A stretch of 61,462 nt of DNA from Candidatus Zixiibacteriota bacterium (lineage in GTDB: Bacteria; Zixibacteria; MSB-5A5; GN15; PGXB01), in contig LS998015.1 of NCBI GenBank assembly GCA_900498245.1, forward strand, positions 3,027,224 to 3,088,685, in the 5' to 3' direction. The translations under genes were made by a program, and so were the position numbers. Shown here piece after piece: positions 21,662 to 57,548 of the stretch. The number at the start of each line of letters is the position of its first letter. Position 1 is the first letter of the stretch. The notes beneath the pieces were generated by a model. That model made no database searches, had not been told where the DNA came from, and saw nothing but the letters and a program-made list of their open reading frames with translations.

Positions 21662-23533
21662 ATGAAAAATCGGCTAATTGTTATCATCTTTGTCGTTTTT
21701 AGCATCCTGATCGGAGCGAACGCTCTGGGCATAGACCTGTCCCGAGGGATCGTGTCCGATGTCCCGGATGAATTTATGAGCCGGACCTTCGGGAAGATTC
21801 CTATTTCCCGACTCACCCATGAAGACAGTGTCGCCATTGCCACCTACCGCTATAACGCCGACACCCTGAAAGTGCTGGCCATTATGGTCGAATGGTTCGA
21901 CCGCCGCGGCACCAATTCCCTCGCCACCATCGACAGTATGCTCTTTTCACGCAATGTCTATCCCGGCGGCTCGGTGGCCGATTATCTGAACGAAGCCTCG
22001 TATGGCAAACTGACAGTGGTGGGGAATGTCATAGACTGGTATAACGCCGGTATGTACTCCAGTTATTACGATTTTGAAAACCTTTTGTATGATCTCGATC
22101 CCTTTATCGATTTCTCACAATACGACGGCAATAATGACGGTGATGTCGATGCCGTAGTCTTTGTCCGGGCCGGCCTCGGGCAGGAAGATTCTCACGATAC
22201 TTATGATATCTGGTCGTACGCGGTGTCGTATGGTCCGCACGGCGGACCGGGTCCATTCGACGGCAAGATGGTGCCGAGCTGGAACACGTCGCCGGAACTG
22301 AGGCCCCTTCACGATTCGCTTAATCCGAGACTTTTCACGGGCGAGGACTCCTTGAACAGTATTCGCGTTTTCGCGCATGAGATGACTCATAATGTCGGCC
22401 TTCCCGATCTATATGACTATGACGCCAAACTCGACACGACCACTTATTTCACGCCGAATGACGCCAACGACCACCCCTTTGTGGACTGGTGCCTGATGGG
22501 ATACGGCGGCTACGGCATATTTTCCATCAAATCGGTGAATCCGTCGCATATTTGCGGATGGAACAAAATGCAGGCCGGATGGATCACCCCTGTCACGCTC
22601 GATGAAGGAAAATACGAAAATCTGGTCATACATAATATCGAAACCACTCCGGATAGTTCCTTATTCAAACTGCCGATAAATCCGGCCCGGGGAGAGTATT
22701 TCCTGCTGGAGTACCGCAATCCGCAATCGGCCGCGCAATACGATAAATTCGATTCCGATTTCAGCGTCTATTTCTGGCCCCTTTTGAAGTATGGGTGTGA
22801 TCCCCTGGACCGGGGGCTCTTGATTACCCATGTGCATGATTCCCTGGGGGCCAATTTCCACCGAATCAATTACGGCTGGCCGATGTATCCCCATTATACG
22901 GTGGCGGTCGAGGATGCCGGATACGATCCAGCGCGGAACAGGTATTATAACGCCGGGGGGAACCTGAGCGATTCGGCGCAGTGGTGGTATCCCTATGAAA
23001 CCAGAAAGGGAGCGCTATTTTCCAATGATGTTCCCGGCCAGGAGACTTTCGGACCGGCGACTGTTCCCAGCAGTGAGGGCTATTTCGGCCCGACCGGCAT
23101 TACGGTGCGGGTTGACTCTATGGTCGGTGATAAACTATACGCCTACGTGATATACGATCTCGACGGCGACGGGGTGCCGAATAACAGCGACAACTGCTCC
23201 GGCTTGAGCAATCCCGAGCAGACCGATGCCGACGCCGACGGTCTCGGGGATGCCTGTGATAATTGTCCCGAGGTATATAATCCGGATCAACTGGACGCCA
23301 ATCATAACGGTATCGGGGATGTTTGCGATTATACCTGCGGTGATGTCAACGGCAATGGAGCGGTCAATATTCTTGATGTCTCTTATATTATTACTTTTCT
23401 GTATAAAGGCGGGCCGGCGCCGGTATCGATGATCGCCGCCAATGTCAACGGGGACGGGAATGTGAATATACTCGATGTCAGTTATTTGATTAATTTCCTC
23501 TACCGTTCCGGACCGGGCCTCAATTGCCAATGA
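21662..23533 (+). CDS. secreted M6-family metalloprotease with TSP3 and dockerin-like repeats
   Basis: I start it at 21662, where a GAGGAG site precedes an ATG that opens a clear signal peptide; the open frame extends upstream to 21572 without such signals. The 623-residue protein has an immune-inhibitor-A-like M6 domain with zinc site HEMTHNVGLPD (His239, Glu240, His243, Asp249). After it come two thrombospondin type 3 calcium repeats (about 493-560) and a C-terminal double dockerin-like module (DVNGNGAVNILDVSYIITFL, then DGNVNILDVSYLINFL). It should be an extracellular, calcium-dependent protease; the terminal repeats probably serve anchoring or stability. A terminator follows directly. Confidence 0.88.
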   Translation: MKNRLIVIIFVVFSILIGANALGIDLSRGIVSDVPDEFMSRTFGKIPISRLTHEDSVAIATYRYNADTLKVLAIMVEWFDRRGTNSLATIDSMLFSRNVYPGGSVADYLNEASYGKLTVVGNVIDWYNAGMYSSYYDFENLLYDLDPFIDFSQYDGNNDGDVDAVVFVRAGLGQEDSHDTYDIWSYAVSYGPHGGPGPFDGKMVPSWNTSPELRPLHDSLNPRLFTGEDSLNSIRVFAHEMTHNVGLPDLYDYDAKLDTTTYFTPNDANDHPFVDWCLMGYGGYGIFSIKSVNPSHICGWNKMQAGWITPVTLDEGKYENLVIHNIETTPDSSLFKLPINPARGEYFLLEYRNPQSAAQYDKFDSDFSVYFWPLLKYGCDPLDRGLLITHVHDSLGANFHRINYGWPMYPHYTVAVEDAGYDPARNRYYNAGGNLSDSAQWWYPYETRKGALFSNDVPGQETFGPATVPSSEGYFGPTGITVRVDSMVGDKLYAYVIYDLDGDGVPNNSDNCSGLSNPEQTDADADGLGDACDNCPEVYNPDQLDANHNGIGDVCDYTCGDVNGNGAVNILDVSYIITFLYKGGPAPVSMIAANVNGDGNVNILDVSYLINFLYRSGPGLNCQ

Positions 23534-47746: not shown

Positions 47747-48136
47747 CTACCATCTTTTGCGGCGATAGGTGGTCTTCCGAGGGGTAGCTGAATAGCGGCG
47801 GGAGTTTCTCTTGCCGTATGCTTTCCTTGTCTTCGGCTGTTCGAAATTCCAGGTGGTCCGTTTTTTGGATTTCGCCCAACGGCTCTTCTTGGTCCGAGTG
47901 GTCGGAGCAACGGAGTATTTCTTCGCGGTTGTCTTCTTCGTCGTCCAGCGGGTTTTCTTGGTGCGGGTAGTCGGAGCGGCCGAGTATTTCTTCGCGGTCG
48001 ACTTTCTGGTTGTCTTCTTGGTCGTCCAGCGTTTCCGAGGAGCAGCCTTCCAGGTGGTCTTGCGAGCAGTGCTCTTTCTGGTGGTCTTGCGGGCCTTAGC
48101 GGTGCGTCCTTTAGTAGTACGTTTCCGGTATGGCAT
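47747..48136 (-). CDS. histone-H1/HC2-like basic protein
   Basis: A 129-residue protein made largely of Lys, Arg, Thr, Ala and Ser. I start it at the ATG at 48136, where GGGAGGAAAGGAA lies upstream; the longer frame to 48259 is not supported. Two imperfect internal repeats of about 23-27 residues (36-62 and 64-86) share RWTTKKTT, AKKYS.APTTRTKK. Such composition is known in HC2-type and H1-like proteins that condense DNA in bacteria. It should be a nucleoid-associated protein, although RNA or polyanion binding is also possible. It has its own promoter region and terminator. Confidence 0.8.
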   Translation of the reverse strand: MPYRKRTTKGRTAKARKTTRKSTARKTTWKAAPRKRWTTKKTTRKSTAKKYSAAPTTRTKKTRWTTKKTTAKKYSVAPTTRTKKSRWAKSKKRTTWNFEQPKTRKAYGKRNSRRYSATPRKTTYRRKRW

Positions 48137-48277
48137 TTCCTTTCCTCCCTTAATAATCAGGGTAAATATTATCAAACCAGAAAGTTTGGTTTGGTTAATT
48201 ATTTTCTTTATCGGCAAACGGTTCCAAAGGTTTAGCGGTACTTGAATGGGGAGCGCCAAGTTAATGGCCGGACGGAT

Positions 48278-49343: not shown

Positions 49344-50327
49344 ATGTCACTTTTAATACCAAAAGCACGTACCGACACCAAATACCTCCCGATCTATCTG
49401 GAATCGCTCCGGATCGATACGATTCTAAGTTTCGACCTGTTCATCAAGATCAGCGGCGAAATGGTTCTTTACCGCTCCGCCGATCTGCCGTTCACGGAAA
49501 AAACCAAAGAGAAACTTCTGGCCAACAAGGTCACCCGGCTTTATGTCAATTCCAAGGCCAAGGCCAAGTATCAGAAATATATCGAGCAGAATCTGGACAA
49601 AATTTTGACCGACCAGCAGATTCAGGAAGAGAAAAAAGCCGGGATCCTGTATGAAACTTCCAAGGCCCTGATGAAGGATGTGCTGGAAAATCCGTCCTAC
49701 GGCGAGAATATTCAGCGCTCCAAGAGACTGGTGGAAAATCAGGTCAGTTTCATTTTGAAGGGGCAGGAAGCATTCCATAATCTTCTCAAAATAAGTTCTT
49801 TCGATTATTACACGTTCACCCATTCGGTCAATGTTTGCACCTTTGCGATTGCCCTGGCCCAGCAGATCGGGCGCAAGGACGAGCAGTACCTTCACGACCT
49901 CGGGATCGGGGCGCTTTTGCACGATGTCGGGAAATCAAAAATATCGGAGCGGATTTTAAATAAGCGGACCGCCCTCTCGCCGATGGAATTCGAATTGATG
50001 AAGAAGCATCCCAAGTGGGGGGTGGAAATTCTGACGACGACCGATATGATCGAGGCGGCCTCGTACTACCCGGTACTCCAGCACCACGAGCGCGGCACCA
50101 AGACCGGCTATCCCAACGGGCTGGGGCTCGACGAGATGCACGAATTCAGCCGGATCGTGGCGGTGGTCGATACCTTCGACGCCATGACCACGCAGAGGGT
50201 GTATCAGGGGGCGATGGATACGTTCCCGGCACTGAAGGTGATGTTTACCCTAAAGGGCGATTACGATTACGAATTATTGAAGGCGTTCGCCGAACTGATG
50301 GGCCCGACGGGGCTGGCGAATATTTAA
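49344..50327 (+). CDS. HD-GYP domain phosphodiesterase-like protein
   Basis: A 327-residue protein with an N-terminal region of about 150 residues (no known domain, DUF3391-like position) and a C-terminal HD-GYP domain that usually breaks down cyclic di-GMP. The metal site is HDVGK at 193-197 with His160 ahead of it; HHE at 247-249 is present. The GYP loop reads ERGTKTGYPNG, where the commoner form is ERxDGSGYPxG, so the Asp is replaced by Thr and the Gly by Lys, but the GYP itself is kept. Activity is likely but unproved. No receiver or membrane domain is seen. It is monocistronic, between a terminator and a RAYT gene. Confidence 0.82.
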   Translation: MSLLIPKARTDTKYLPIYLESLRIDTILSFDLFIKISGEMVLYRSADLPFTEKTKEKLLANKVTRLYVNSKAKAKYQKYIEQNLDKILTDQQIQEEKKAGILYETSKALMKDVLENPSYGENIQRSKRLVENQVSFILKGQEAFHNLLKISSFDYYTFTHSVNVCTFAIALAQQIGRKDEQYLHDLGIGALLHDVGKSKISERILNKRTALSPMEFELMKKHPKWGVEILTTTDMIEAASYYPVLQHHERGTKTGYPNGLGLDEMHEFSRIVAVVDTFDAMTTQRVYQGAMDTFPALKVMFTLKGDYDYELLKAFAELMGPTGLANI

Positions 50328-50425
50328 TTCCAATCGACATTATTAGTAAAATAATGTCAGGCTCCAAGAAGATCTCTGACCTGCCATTTCTTTTTCCAAG
50401 ACAACCAGAAGATAATTTCAGGGGT

Positions 50426-50452
50426 GCCACCCCCAAACTTGTTTTGGGGGTG
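50426..50452 (-). repeat. REP-like palindrome A
   Basis: Hairpin with arms CACCCCCAAA / TTTGGGGGTG and a 5-base loop. Read on the minus strand it continues GTGGCACCCC, the same flank as copies B and C, so it is inverted relative to them. It abuts the stop of the transposase gene. Confidence 0.8.
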
Positions 50453-50453
50453 T

Positions 50454-51020
50454 TCATATAGCGGGAAAACTATCTCTATTAATAGGAATAGGACCACCGC
50501 CGAATCCCGACCAATCAATGGCACTTGACCACTTCCAATCCTCCGGCCTGGCACTTAAGCCACGTCTCACAGGATTATTATGAATATAATGAACTGAACT
50601 AATGATGGCTTTTGAATAGACAAAATTACGGTCATATCCTCCCCCATCCATCCAGAGTCTATAGGGAGTATCCTTAAAACCGGTCGCCAGAAATTTCAGT
50701 CCGTCTGGATTTTTCTTGCGTAGATGGATTATGGCCTTTCTTGAGGATGACTGCTTTATTGATAACATTATGTTTGAAATGGAATAGATTTCCCTTTTCG
50801 GCCAGATCAAAATGTGTACATGGTTCGGCATGAATACGTACGCCCAGATATCAAATTGATGTAAAGATTGTGCCCTTATTATGGACTCGATAAGAAAATG
50901 GCAAACAATATCCTTCGATAAAAACGGTCTTTTCTTCAAGCAACAAAATGTGAGCTCATGAGCCTGAAATGGAATATTAAATCGACGACACAGCTTTATA
51001 TTCGAGGTTTTATCAATCAT
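50454..51020 (-). CDS. REP-associated tyrosine transposase (RAYT, Y1/HUH superfamily)
   Basis: A 188-residue protein from the ATG at 51020. A frame start at 51065 would place the first 15 residues inside a REP hairpin and is rejected. The HUH histidines are in MPNHVHILIW, and the catalytic Tyr is in HYIHNNPVRRGL, as in the RAYT branch related to IS200/IS605 TnpA. The end ARPEDWKWSS is also typical. Such enzymes cut and join single-stranded REP hairpins, and REP copies flank this gene on both sides. The gene is AT-rich compared with the neighbours. No TnpB is present, so it should act on REPs only. Confidence 0.88.
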   Translation of the reverse strand: MIDKTSNIKLCRRFNIPFQAHELTFCCLKKRPFLSKDIVCHFLIESIIRAQSLHQFDIWAYVFMPNHVHILIWPKREIYSISNIMLSIKQSSSRKAIIHLRKKNPDGLKFLATGFKDTPYRLWMDGGGYDRNFVYSKAIISSVHYIHNNPVRRGLSARPEDWKWSSAIDWSGFGGGPIPINRDSFPAI

Positions 51021-51032
51021 AGTCTTATAGGT

Positions 51033-51068
51033 GATGCACCCCCAAAGCAAGTTTGGGGGTGGCACCCA
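51033..51068 (+). repeat. REP-like palindrome B
   Basis: Hairpin with arms CACCCCCAAA / TTTGGGGGTG (loop GCAAG) followed by GCACCCAGAA. It lies just upstream of the transposase start and is inverted relative to copy A. Confidence 0.8.
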
Positions 51069-51147
51069 GAATTGCGATATTTCTCCAAATGGTTCTTAAT
51101 TCTGTCTCTGAATATTCAATATCCTATTAATAACGGTGCAGGTATGC

Positions 51148-51180
51148 CTCACCCCCAAACAAGTTTGGGGGTGGCACCCA
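51148..51180 (+). repeat. REP-like palindrome C
   Basis: Arms CACCCCCAAAC / GTTTGGGGGTG with a 2-base loop, followed by GCACCCAGAA exactly as in copy B. It is a direct repeat of B, about 115 bases further on, and lies 25 bases past the recA stop. Confidence 0.8.
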
Positions 51181-51204: not shown

Positions 51205-52236
<1,032 letters not shown>

Positions 52237-52341
52237 ATTAACCTCACCTTTATTTAAAGTTAACTTATTGCCCATATTGCAAATACGGTATTATTGTCAC
52301 AATTTAATGGCTCCTCAATCGAAGCGATATCACATTTTTCA

Positions 52342-55421: not shown

Positions 55422-57548
55422 TCAAGGGACGGGGCAAATCGGCGCCGTGCCGCCGCGATAAAGGAATGAAATCAGAGTCGAGACATCGAGGATATTGACG
55501 GTTCCGTTGCCGTTGGCGTCGCCGCGTCCGAGCGGAAGGGGCGGGAAGCCCTGATGATACAGATAATTTATAAGGGCGCTGACATCAAGAATATTTATTG
55601 TCTCGTCGTTGTTGGCATCGCCGCATTTATAGATTATGCCGATCAGGCCATCGGTATGCTTGGGAGAAAATTGGACCACCGGCCCGTAGAACATCGGCGC
55701 ATAGGTTCCGAATCCTTCCAGGCCGATATTATTAAATAGATCGGAGGTCGCTCCGGCCGGAATAGTGAAATACAATTTCAATACGGGGCCGTCACCTGCC
55801 GCCAGATCCACGGCGCCGACGCTTGAATTATACAGGGAAAAGGAGGTCAGACAATTTTGTTCATCAAGCATGGTTTGAGATACATGTTCGAAATAATCGG
55901 TTCGGCATCCGGCGGTGGAAAAGGAATCAAGAGTCAGCGCCATGTCGCCCTTGAAACAGATCGGTATTTGAATATGGCTGACAGGGACAGTATTGCGCGC
56001 CGAGATGGTCAAGGCCACCGTCCGGCCGGGATCGCTGTTGAGCCGTCCGCCTTTCAAAGTATCGGCCAGAGCGGTAATATATTTCGTGACCGTATAAGAG
56101 CGAATATCGCTGCCCGACTGAATCTGCACTTTTACGTCATACCGGCCGGGAGTGGTATAGACATGGGTGGGCGATTCCACGAAGGCCGAGTCACCGTCGC
56201 CGAAGGACCAGGTCCACGTATCGACGGTCGGGAAAGAGGTAACGGCCGCAAAATCAACCTGAAGCGGCAGAGTTCCCCAGGTCGTATCGGAAGTGAAATA
56301 GACCCCCCGATCGGGCTCGATATGAGTATACATCGATTCCACCCACGGTGAGCAACCGCTCCAGGGACAGTACAATTGATCAATGGTGTACCAAAAATTA
56401 TTGCTCCCTCCCCAGCCATAATTCATATGGACCTGATAAATGGCATCAACCTGCCGCCAGCCGTCACAGACGATGGCGTGGCTGTAAATGCCGTAGACAA
56501 TGGGACGGTTATTTTCAATCTCGGCTTTGATGGAATCGGACCAATTTTTCAGGCTGGTTCCGGATCGCTCCAGTTCCAGAATATTGTTATTATAACGGAA
56601 ATAATGGGAAAAGACATAGGGGGTGTTATCGAGATAGGCCCCGGAGCCGCAATGGCCGTACATCATGCTGTAGGCAATGCCGACATCGGAACAGAGACGG
56701 GCCATGGCATCCTTCTGGGCCGTCGTGCAGTCGTAACCGCAAGTATTCCGAATATTATCCCAGTCGTAAGCATGATTGAAATCGCCGGTAATCATCATGC
56801 CGGGAGTATGCCCGCCGCAGGAGTTGTCGCCGGACCAATAGTAAGTTCTTACGCCGCTTCCCTGGAGGGGCCATTTATGATAGGCCATCACCTGCGCCGC
56901 CGCTGTAGCCACGCACCCCACCACGCAGCGGCCGCCGTCTCCCTGCGGGCAATACATATTATAAGGGTCGTTCTGGTGCCAGACCGTCGTTACAAGCGGA
57001 CCCAGATCGGCCGTCGGAGTCATTTTCATGGCCGTCATCTGAGATTTAAATTCATTCTCGTCTTTCTGATAGACATACCACTGCTGGCGCTGTTCGCGGG
57101 CCAAAAGCGCCACGCCGGTATCCGGCTGGGCGGCATCGAGCGAGCCGTAAAACATGACAAAGCGGCGGGCCCGGTCGGCCAGGACGTCTTTTAACATAAC
57201 GGGAACGCCATCGGGGTCATCCCAATTGATCCGATTTTCCTCGGAATAGGCCTGTACCACGGGCAGTTCTTTCAGGACAGGGACTATTATATAGCCGTTG
57301 GGGCTGATTTCAAAATACCGGGCCACAACGGTATCGCTAACCCTTATATCCTTAACCGAAGCAATCGTCGGCGCGGTTGACCCGGCCCATGAGCCATTGC
57401 GCAATACCATAGTGGTCAACCAGTTATTGCACACCTGGGACATGTCGTTCAGAGTCGCCGTGGTGGCAAAAAGCGACGATGCCGAGGCAATAAGGAGGAA
57501 AAATATCAACATTGCGCAGACGGATTTGGCGGTTAACGATTTTAACAT
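55422..57548 (-). CDS. secreted C10-family cysteine protease with PKD, cohesin-like and dockerin-like modules
   Basis: The start at 57548 has GAGG upstream and begins a signal peptide (residues 1 to about 27); the open frame extends 13 codons further without one. The 708-residue protein has a Spi-type propeptide (about 30-180), then a streptopain-like C10 peptidase with catalytic Cys212 (GCVATAAAQVMAYHKWP) and His357 (SHAIVCDGW), plus the HMNYGWGG loop. A PKD domain follows near 425-500 (WSFGDG.S, HVYTTPGRYDV), a cohesin-like beta domain near 515-640, and last a double dockerin-like module (NNDETINILDVSALINYL, NGNGTVNILDVSTLISFL). It should be an extracellular protease. It is monocistronic with a strong terminator. 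Confidence 0.88.
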   Translation of the reverse strand: MLKSLTAKSVCAMLIFFLLIASASSLFATTATLNDMSQVCNNWLTTMVLRNGSWAGSTAPTIASVKDIRVSDTVVARYFEISPNGYIIVPVLKELPVVQAYSEENRINWDDPDGVPVMLKDVLADRARRFVMFYGSLDAAQPDTGVALLAREQRQQWYVYQKDENEFKSQMTAMKMTPTADLGPLVTTVWHQNDPYNMYCPQGDGGRCVVGCVATAAAQVMAYHKWPLQGSGVRTYYWSGDNSCGGHTPGMMITGDFNHAYDWDNIRNTCGYDCTTAQKDAMARLCSDVGIAYSMMYGHCGSGAYLDNTPYVFSHYFRYNNNILELERSGTSLKNWSDSIKAEIENNRPIVYGIYSHAIVCDGWRQVDAIYQVHMNYGWGGSNNFWYTIDQLYCPWSGCSPWVESMYTHIEPDRGVYFTSDTTWGTLPLQVDFAAVTSFPTVDTWTWSFGDGDSAFVESPTHVYTTPGRYDVKVQIQSGSDIRSYTVTKYITALADTLKGGRLNSDPGRTVALTISARNTVPVSHIQIPICFKGDMALTLDSFSTAGCRTDYFEHVSQTMLDEQNCLTSFSLYNSSVGAVDLAAGDGPVLKLYFTIPAGATSDLFNNIGLEGFGTYAPMFYGPVVQFSPKHTDGLIGIIYKCGDANNDETINILDVSALINYLYHQGFPPLPLGRGDANGNGTVNILDVSTLISFLYRGGTAPICPVP

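Follow-up and report, generated by a model that had tools for sequence, protein, structure and literature searches.

Between an HD-domain gene and recA of a Candidatus Zixiibacteriota bacterium, a gene for a small transposase is surrounded by three hairpins, which raises the question of whether enzyme and hairpins belong together, whether the hairpins are the source of a repeat family in this genome and how such an arrangement is gained or lost. The window, by which we mean the entire stretch of 61,462 nucleotides that was analysed, corresponds to positions 3,027,224-3,088,685 of a genome (G000) consisting of a single contig of 3,508,505 bases. The best explanation of the locus is, in our view, a REPtron, i.e. 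a RAYT (Y1/HUH REP-associated tyrosine transposase) gene along with its cognate REP hairpins. We assign a probability of about 0.7 to this reading, which includes a presumed action of the enzyme on the hairpins as well as a presumed loss of the unit in a congener.

The RAYT gene and its inverted hairpins

The RAYT gene is located on the minus strand (50454..51020) and, read from its ATG, encodes 188 amino acids. The protein matches the Pfam family Y1_Tnp (PF01797) with 33.9 bits (cut-off 23) and narrowly passes the cut-off of the REP_Tyr_transpos model NF047646 (81.2 bits versus 80), and E. coli TnpArep (4er8, E 3.2e-10) ranks first among the four PDB matches obtained with profile A2, which was built from five RAYTs. 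Its HUH motif reads MPNHVH, its W-motif LWMDGGGYDR and its tyrosine motif YIHNNP; judged from its sequence, the protein has a HUH/Y1 core of the RAYT type. A likeness to TnpAY1 subclass 2.4 (NH[IFV]H, WQ, YIxNNP) exists at the level of motifs inasmuch as NHVH and YIHNNP fit the row of this subclass in the table of PMC6006769, whereas W-M replaces W-Q. The open reading frame as originally listed (50454-51065) starts from a GTG upstream of hairpin B and hence runs through this hairpin. The ATG at 51020 is the better start. It lies 16 nt past hairpin B, a spacing likewise found for the RAYT of G009, a genome of the same family, and B could also act on the RAYT's own expression. The ATG-started protein is present in a single copy in G000 (G000:C1:3077680-3078243), the next-best match being 29% identical.

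In the order hairpin A, RAYT, hairpin B, hairpin C, the unit spans 50422..51179 (unstranded) between the HD-domain gene (49344-50327, plus strand) and recA (51205-52275, minus strand). Both neighbours are convergent, with A lying 94 nt from the stop of the HD-domain gene and C 25 nt from recA. Hairpin A (50428-50452; with its flank 50422..50452, plus strand) is located downstream of the RAYT and consists of a GGGTGC guide flank followed by a stem-loop with CACCCCCAAAC and TTTTGGGGGTG as its arms. Hairpin B (51037-51061; with its guide flank 51037..51067, minus strand), directly upstream of the gene, is inverted with respect to A, and hairpin C (51150-51173; with its guide flank 51150..51179, minus strand), the outermost upstream copy, is oriented as B. 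All three share a 10-bp foot together with the flank GGGTGCC/GGCACCC, and their loops comprise 4-5 nt. The sequence TTTGGGGGTGGCACCC occurs three times exactly in the window; with up to three mismatches it is found at five places, whereas 100 shuffles averaged 0.50 and never reached five. Thus, the RAYT gene is flanked by inverted hairpins which carry the guide at their foot and which, on both sides of the gene, point outward with this guide. An earlier note on this DNA had described three hairpins with a common flank, A being inverted relative to B and C, and an HUH transposase between A and B, all of which is present; its assignment of the locus to a RAYT with REP hairpins is borne out by the family matches and by the hairpin anatomy.

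The arrangement resembles the REPtron or TnpAREP-REP systems of E. coli, Stenotrophomonas and Marinomonas, for which PMC8266576 describes an HUH/Y1 protein, a single-copy gene, inverted hairpins, a guide tetranucleotide at the foot and dispersed copies. It differs from them in its guide, which is GTGC here and GT[AG]G there, as well as in the absence of inverted REPIN pairs among the copies considered below.

The guide tetranucleotide and its variation

Read towards the hairpin, copies A, B and C all present GGGTGC followed by CACCCCC, which makes GTGC the guide. The earlier note had stated that the classic GTAG flank is lacking. While this is literally true, the flank at the guide position is GTGC, which departs from the canonical GT[AG]G in one base and is thus a variant of the known GTGG guide. 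Since GTGG-bearing relatives reveal that this position varies within one RAYT clade, we file GTGC, which falls outside GT[AG]G in all three copies, as a variant guide rather than the locus as a canonical GT[AG]G REP. A survey of 110 loci (30 plus 80, that of the window included) yielded 91 with an intact reading frame and motifs and, after removal of one duplicate, 90 RAYT rows, in which a second duplicate pair (L196 and L243, both without guide call) remained. By means of a guide finder which admits GT[AG]N only, so that other guides would escape it, GTGG alone was called in 32 rows, GTGC alone in 12, both in 11 and none in 35. Beside these RAYTs, GTGG or GTGC is found at 26% of hairpin sides (262 hairpins, 90 loci), compared to 1.6% in 20 sampled stretches of G000 (540 hairpins).

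On a tree of the 55 rows with a guide call, the GTGC label needs nine changes, and well-supported branches force at least seven. The label is only weakly clustered (nine changes versus a shuffled mean of 11.0, with 36 of 500 shuffles needing no more than nine), and wrong calls may therefore inflate the number of switches. Within these bounds, the fourth guide base seems to have switched repeatedly in this RAYT clade. A common stem may also go with a different guide, as GTGG precedes CACCCCCAAA in G102 and in record L221. With regard to the residue following the W, methionine or leucine accompanies GTGC in four rows, GTGG in none, a mixed call in one and no call in one, while glutamine is present in 8 GTGC, 31 GTGG, 10 mixed and 33 uncalled rows; glutamate occurs once with GTGG and lysine once without a call. 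The contrast of methionine or leucine with glutamine by guide gives a Fisher p of 0.004, kinship among the rows being ignored. A strict link between guide base and W-motif residue was nevertheless rejected because GTGC also occurs with glutamine, so that the residue change is not needed for GTGC.

According to PMC8266576, one flexible REPtron could cut at CA and CC once GTAG had been changed to GTGG, and at GA and GT with GTAC. Extrapolating this guide rule, GTGC would steer the cut to GC or GA instead of CT or CA. A clade in which the last guide base varies should make the rule which links guide and cleavage site testable with natural enzymes. In a limited literature collection, titles and abstract openings point neither to REPs with a GTGC guide nor to Zixibacteria RAYTs or REP loops that form quadruplexes, and neither PMC6006769 nor PMC3733652 contains the string “gtgc”.

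Dispersed hairpins with an enlarged loop

Exact copies of the short hairpin core are found at three places of the genome, all of them at the RAYT locus. The half-motif GGGGGTGGCACCC, in contrast, is matched exactly at 23 places and, when one mismatch is allowed, at 30 in all, versus two for the reversed pattern. Except for the three beside the RAYT, most of them represent units which share guide and foot with the short hairpins and enclose a G-rich loop of 29-31 nt. R1, a covariance model built from 20 large units, obtained 31 matches in G000, namely 24 large units, the three short hairpins at the RAYT, two truncated units and two antisense overlaps. The large units sit at 17 places, one of them, at 358280, with a decayed foot. 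Judged by guide and foot, these 24 units are dispersed copies of the cognate hairpin, while its exact short form is undispersed. Hence, the suggestion of the earlier note that the locus would be the parent of a REP family stands as far as guide and foot are concerned, yet the family members carry a much larger loop; that no other copies exist, named there as a refuting outcome, holds for the exact short hairpin alone. REPIN pairs, i.e. two close inverted REPs, whose count the note had proposed, were not seen among the R1 matches, in which clusters of large units run head to tail; copies that are close together and inverted exist solely around the RAYT.

As to the enzyme behind the dispersal, the RAYT would bind the single-stranded hairpin by recognising guide and foot, the guide would select the cleavage site, and cleavage with subsequent strand transfer would have spread the enlarged hairpins. 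We infer an action of this particular RAYT on the large form from the shared guide and foot; against it stands the difference between the loops, which comprise 4-5 nt beside the gene and about 30 nt in the dispersed units. G000 harbours 11 Y1 transposases of several kinds. In nine of the ten other Y1 loci (about 1.5 kb on each side), guide plus foot does not occur even with up to two mismatches. In the tenth, that of the Y1 transposase L038, a five-unit array (645839-646184) is located about 1 kb downstream, and large units at 2037587 and 2042397 lie on either side of L042, 1.4 and 2.9 kb off and thus outside the L042 locus. These units within 1-3 kb of other transposases count against the RAYT of the window as their enzyme and slightly lower our confidence. 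Immediate flanks of all ten other Y1 genes lack the hairpin, however; cognate hairpins were thus found directly beside this RAYT alone.

By eye, the flanks of the ten other Y1 transposases contain palindromes of their own, of GTAGGTC, GTGCGC and GGTAACC types. Palindromes like these also directly adjoin several of the large hairpins, giving rise to clusters of mosaic structure. An unsystematic look for an insertion-empty pair of a dispersed unit found none. The direction of genes beside the large units is mixed (17 loci, crude ORF caller). A replication-strand bias of the large units, at which the raw counts of orientation had hinted, was considered and dropped, as a hand count over the 17 places gave 8 versus 3 in one half and 3 versus 3 in the other, the halves being defined from dnaA at 236,555 and a noisy, sampled GC skew.

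The enlarged loop also sets the dispersed units apart from GTAG families, whose loops are tabulated at 2-20 nt in PMC3733652. On the guide strand, it consists of 49% G (21 units). Alignment A1 comprises 20 units with 18 distinct loops, and all of its loop columns conserved to at least 90% are G (11 of 14 G columns versus none of 13 others); as the rows are related to each other, this is suggestive at most. A quadruplex pattern with two-G runs is matched by 20 of 21 loops and the strict three-G pattern by five of 21. Compared to shuffles of their own letters, six of 21 loops have an unusual G4Hunter score (p < 0.05), and a folding program favours a quadruplex in three of 17 sequences. A G-quadruplex in the large loop is possible. 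Quadruplex repeats of Xanthomonas and Nostoc are the subject of PMC4692102. That the loop simply extends the hairpin is unsupported: guide-strand RNA energies of 17 sequences are mostly slightly better than those of loop shuffles but inconsistent (z from -2.55 to +0.90), and in the RNAalifold structure the foot stem gains no more than one T-G pair.

The corresponding locus in relatives and the history of the unit

In the congener G001, exactly at the position of the A-RAYT-B-C unit between HD gene and recA, a single double-footed hairpin is present, in which GGGTGC precedes and GCACCC follows the stem-loop. The alignment of both genomes is 87% identical on the left side (1319/1513) and 85% on the right (1290/1518), and the junction stretch of 3017 bases in G001 contains no N. 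No RAYT ortholog was found in G001, a draft of 390 contigs and 92% completeness in which gene or hairpin copies may be missed. Compared to the 24 large-loop units of G000, G001 has one, with a different, even more G-rich loop. Double-footed hairpins occur neither among 48 distinct regular unit sequences nor among the 262 hairpins beside the 90 RAYTs, scans which irregular ones such as that of G001, located through its foot, escape.

The HD gene is present in 14 genomes of the family, and recA directly adjoins it in nine (G000, G001, G009, G002, G012, G011, G007, G003 and G008), and guide plus foot is found at this locus in the first three only. G009 harbours a single-footed solo hairpin there, spaced differently from the HD gene, while its RAYT (61-63% identical) is located on another contig between copies of the same short hairpin; more copies are present elsewhere in G009. 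The 17-base guide-plus-foot string (up to one mismatch) occurs in eight of 40 genomes, the own one included. Outside the genus, 18 of the 20 copies read are short-loop hairpins, the other two (in G010 and G033) forming no clean hairpin. In 15 family genomes, R1 obtained, at E<=0.001, 27 matches in G000, two in G001, nine in G009, two in G010, one in G011 and none in the other ten.

The likeliest reading of the G001 state is that A collapsed onto C and the unit was lost in this way, since a double-footed hairpin is the form which such a collapse gives directly. A deletion between hairpins A and C would have removed the unit and left behind a double-footed scar along with few orphan hairpins. 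According to PMC6006769, inverted REPs that lose the central part between them could give rise to a double foot; the double foot at our locus, a further likeness to subclass 2.4, differs in that it replaces a whole RAYT gene. That hairpins occur in a relative without the transposase, which the earlier note had regarded as refuting, is thus partly the case, but we read it as gene loss with relics rather than as refutation of REP parentage. The opposite history, in which the unit, itself mobile, inserted into an ancestral solo hairpin, e.g. as a circle recombining at the shared hairpin, would also fit. The solo hairpins of both G001 and G009, the RAYT of G009 with the same hairpins on another contig and the coincidence of the unit's boundaries with hairpins speak for the hairpin having come first and the gene later. 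We nevertheless regard this as unlikely, as the G001 hairpin bears the double foot expected from collapse, the single-footed solo of G009 may, in view of its position, be unrelated, and the large-loop copy kept in G001 suggests that this genome once had the enzyme.

Two further explanations dispense with a REPtron altogether. An IS200/IS605-like insertion sequence moving as a unit with its terminal hairpins would share, according to the papers cited above, Y1 chemistry and subterminal hairpins with the present locus, and presence and absence of the unit are indeed bounded by hairpins. This is very improbable considering that the protein reaches 24.9 bits against a cut-off of 55 with the transpos_IS200 model NF033573 while exceeding that of the REP model, that the gene exists once in G000, and that the hairpins on its two sides are copies of one another in inverted orientation, with relatives dispersed without the gene. 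Even more remote is the idea that terminators or unrelated intergenic palindromes flank the RAYT by chance. Their location between convergent genes would suit it, but guide and foot are found again at 17 other places, the G009 RAYT has the same hairpins around it at another locus, GTGG- or GTGC-tagged hairpins are enriched beside RAYTs, and no Rfam match reached the gathering level in the seven loci scanned.

Returning to the REPtron, we tentatively put forward a joint history, doubtful as a whole. In a RAYT clade common to Zixiibacteriota and Planctomycetota, guide base 4 would have alternated many times between G and C, which would shift cleavage from CC/CA to GC/GA, and the conserved glutamine that follows the W would occasionally have been lost. 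In the present genome, the mobile hairpin would have acquired a loop resembling a G-quadruplex, and a collapse of its own hairpins would be a way in which the RAYT unit can be lost. If loss by collapse is true, double-foot REPs would be fossils of lost REPtrons, and the paired locus, gene unit in one genome and merged hairpin in its congener, hints at how RAYT genes are gained or lost.

Some minor observations may be added. A second HD-domain paralog (45% identical) adjoins another Y1 transposase in G000 (G000:C1:3119320-3120963), and contig C313 of G001 contains a similar pair, its transposase having one internal stop. Within the window, 47747-48259 (minus strand) encodes a small lysine- and arginine-rich repeat protein which resembles a histone-like tail and contains an internal 69-base tandem repeat. 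Finally, 23343-23502 and 55440-55631 are related coding repeats with NILD motifs, which we take to be dockerin-like.
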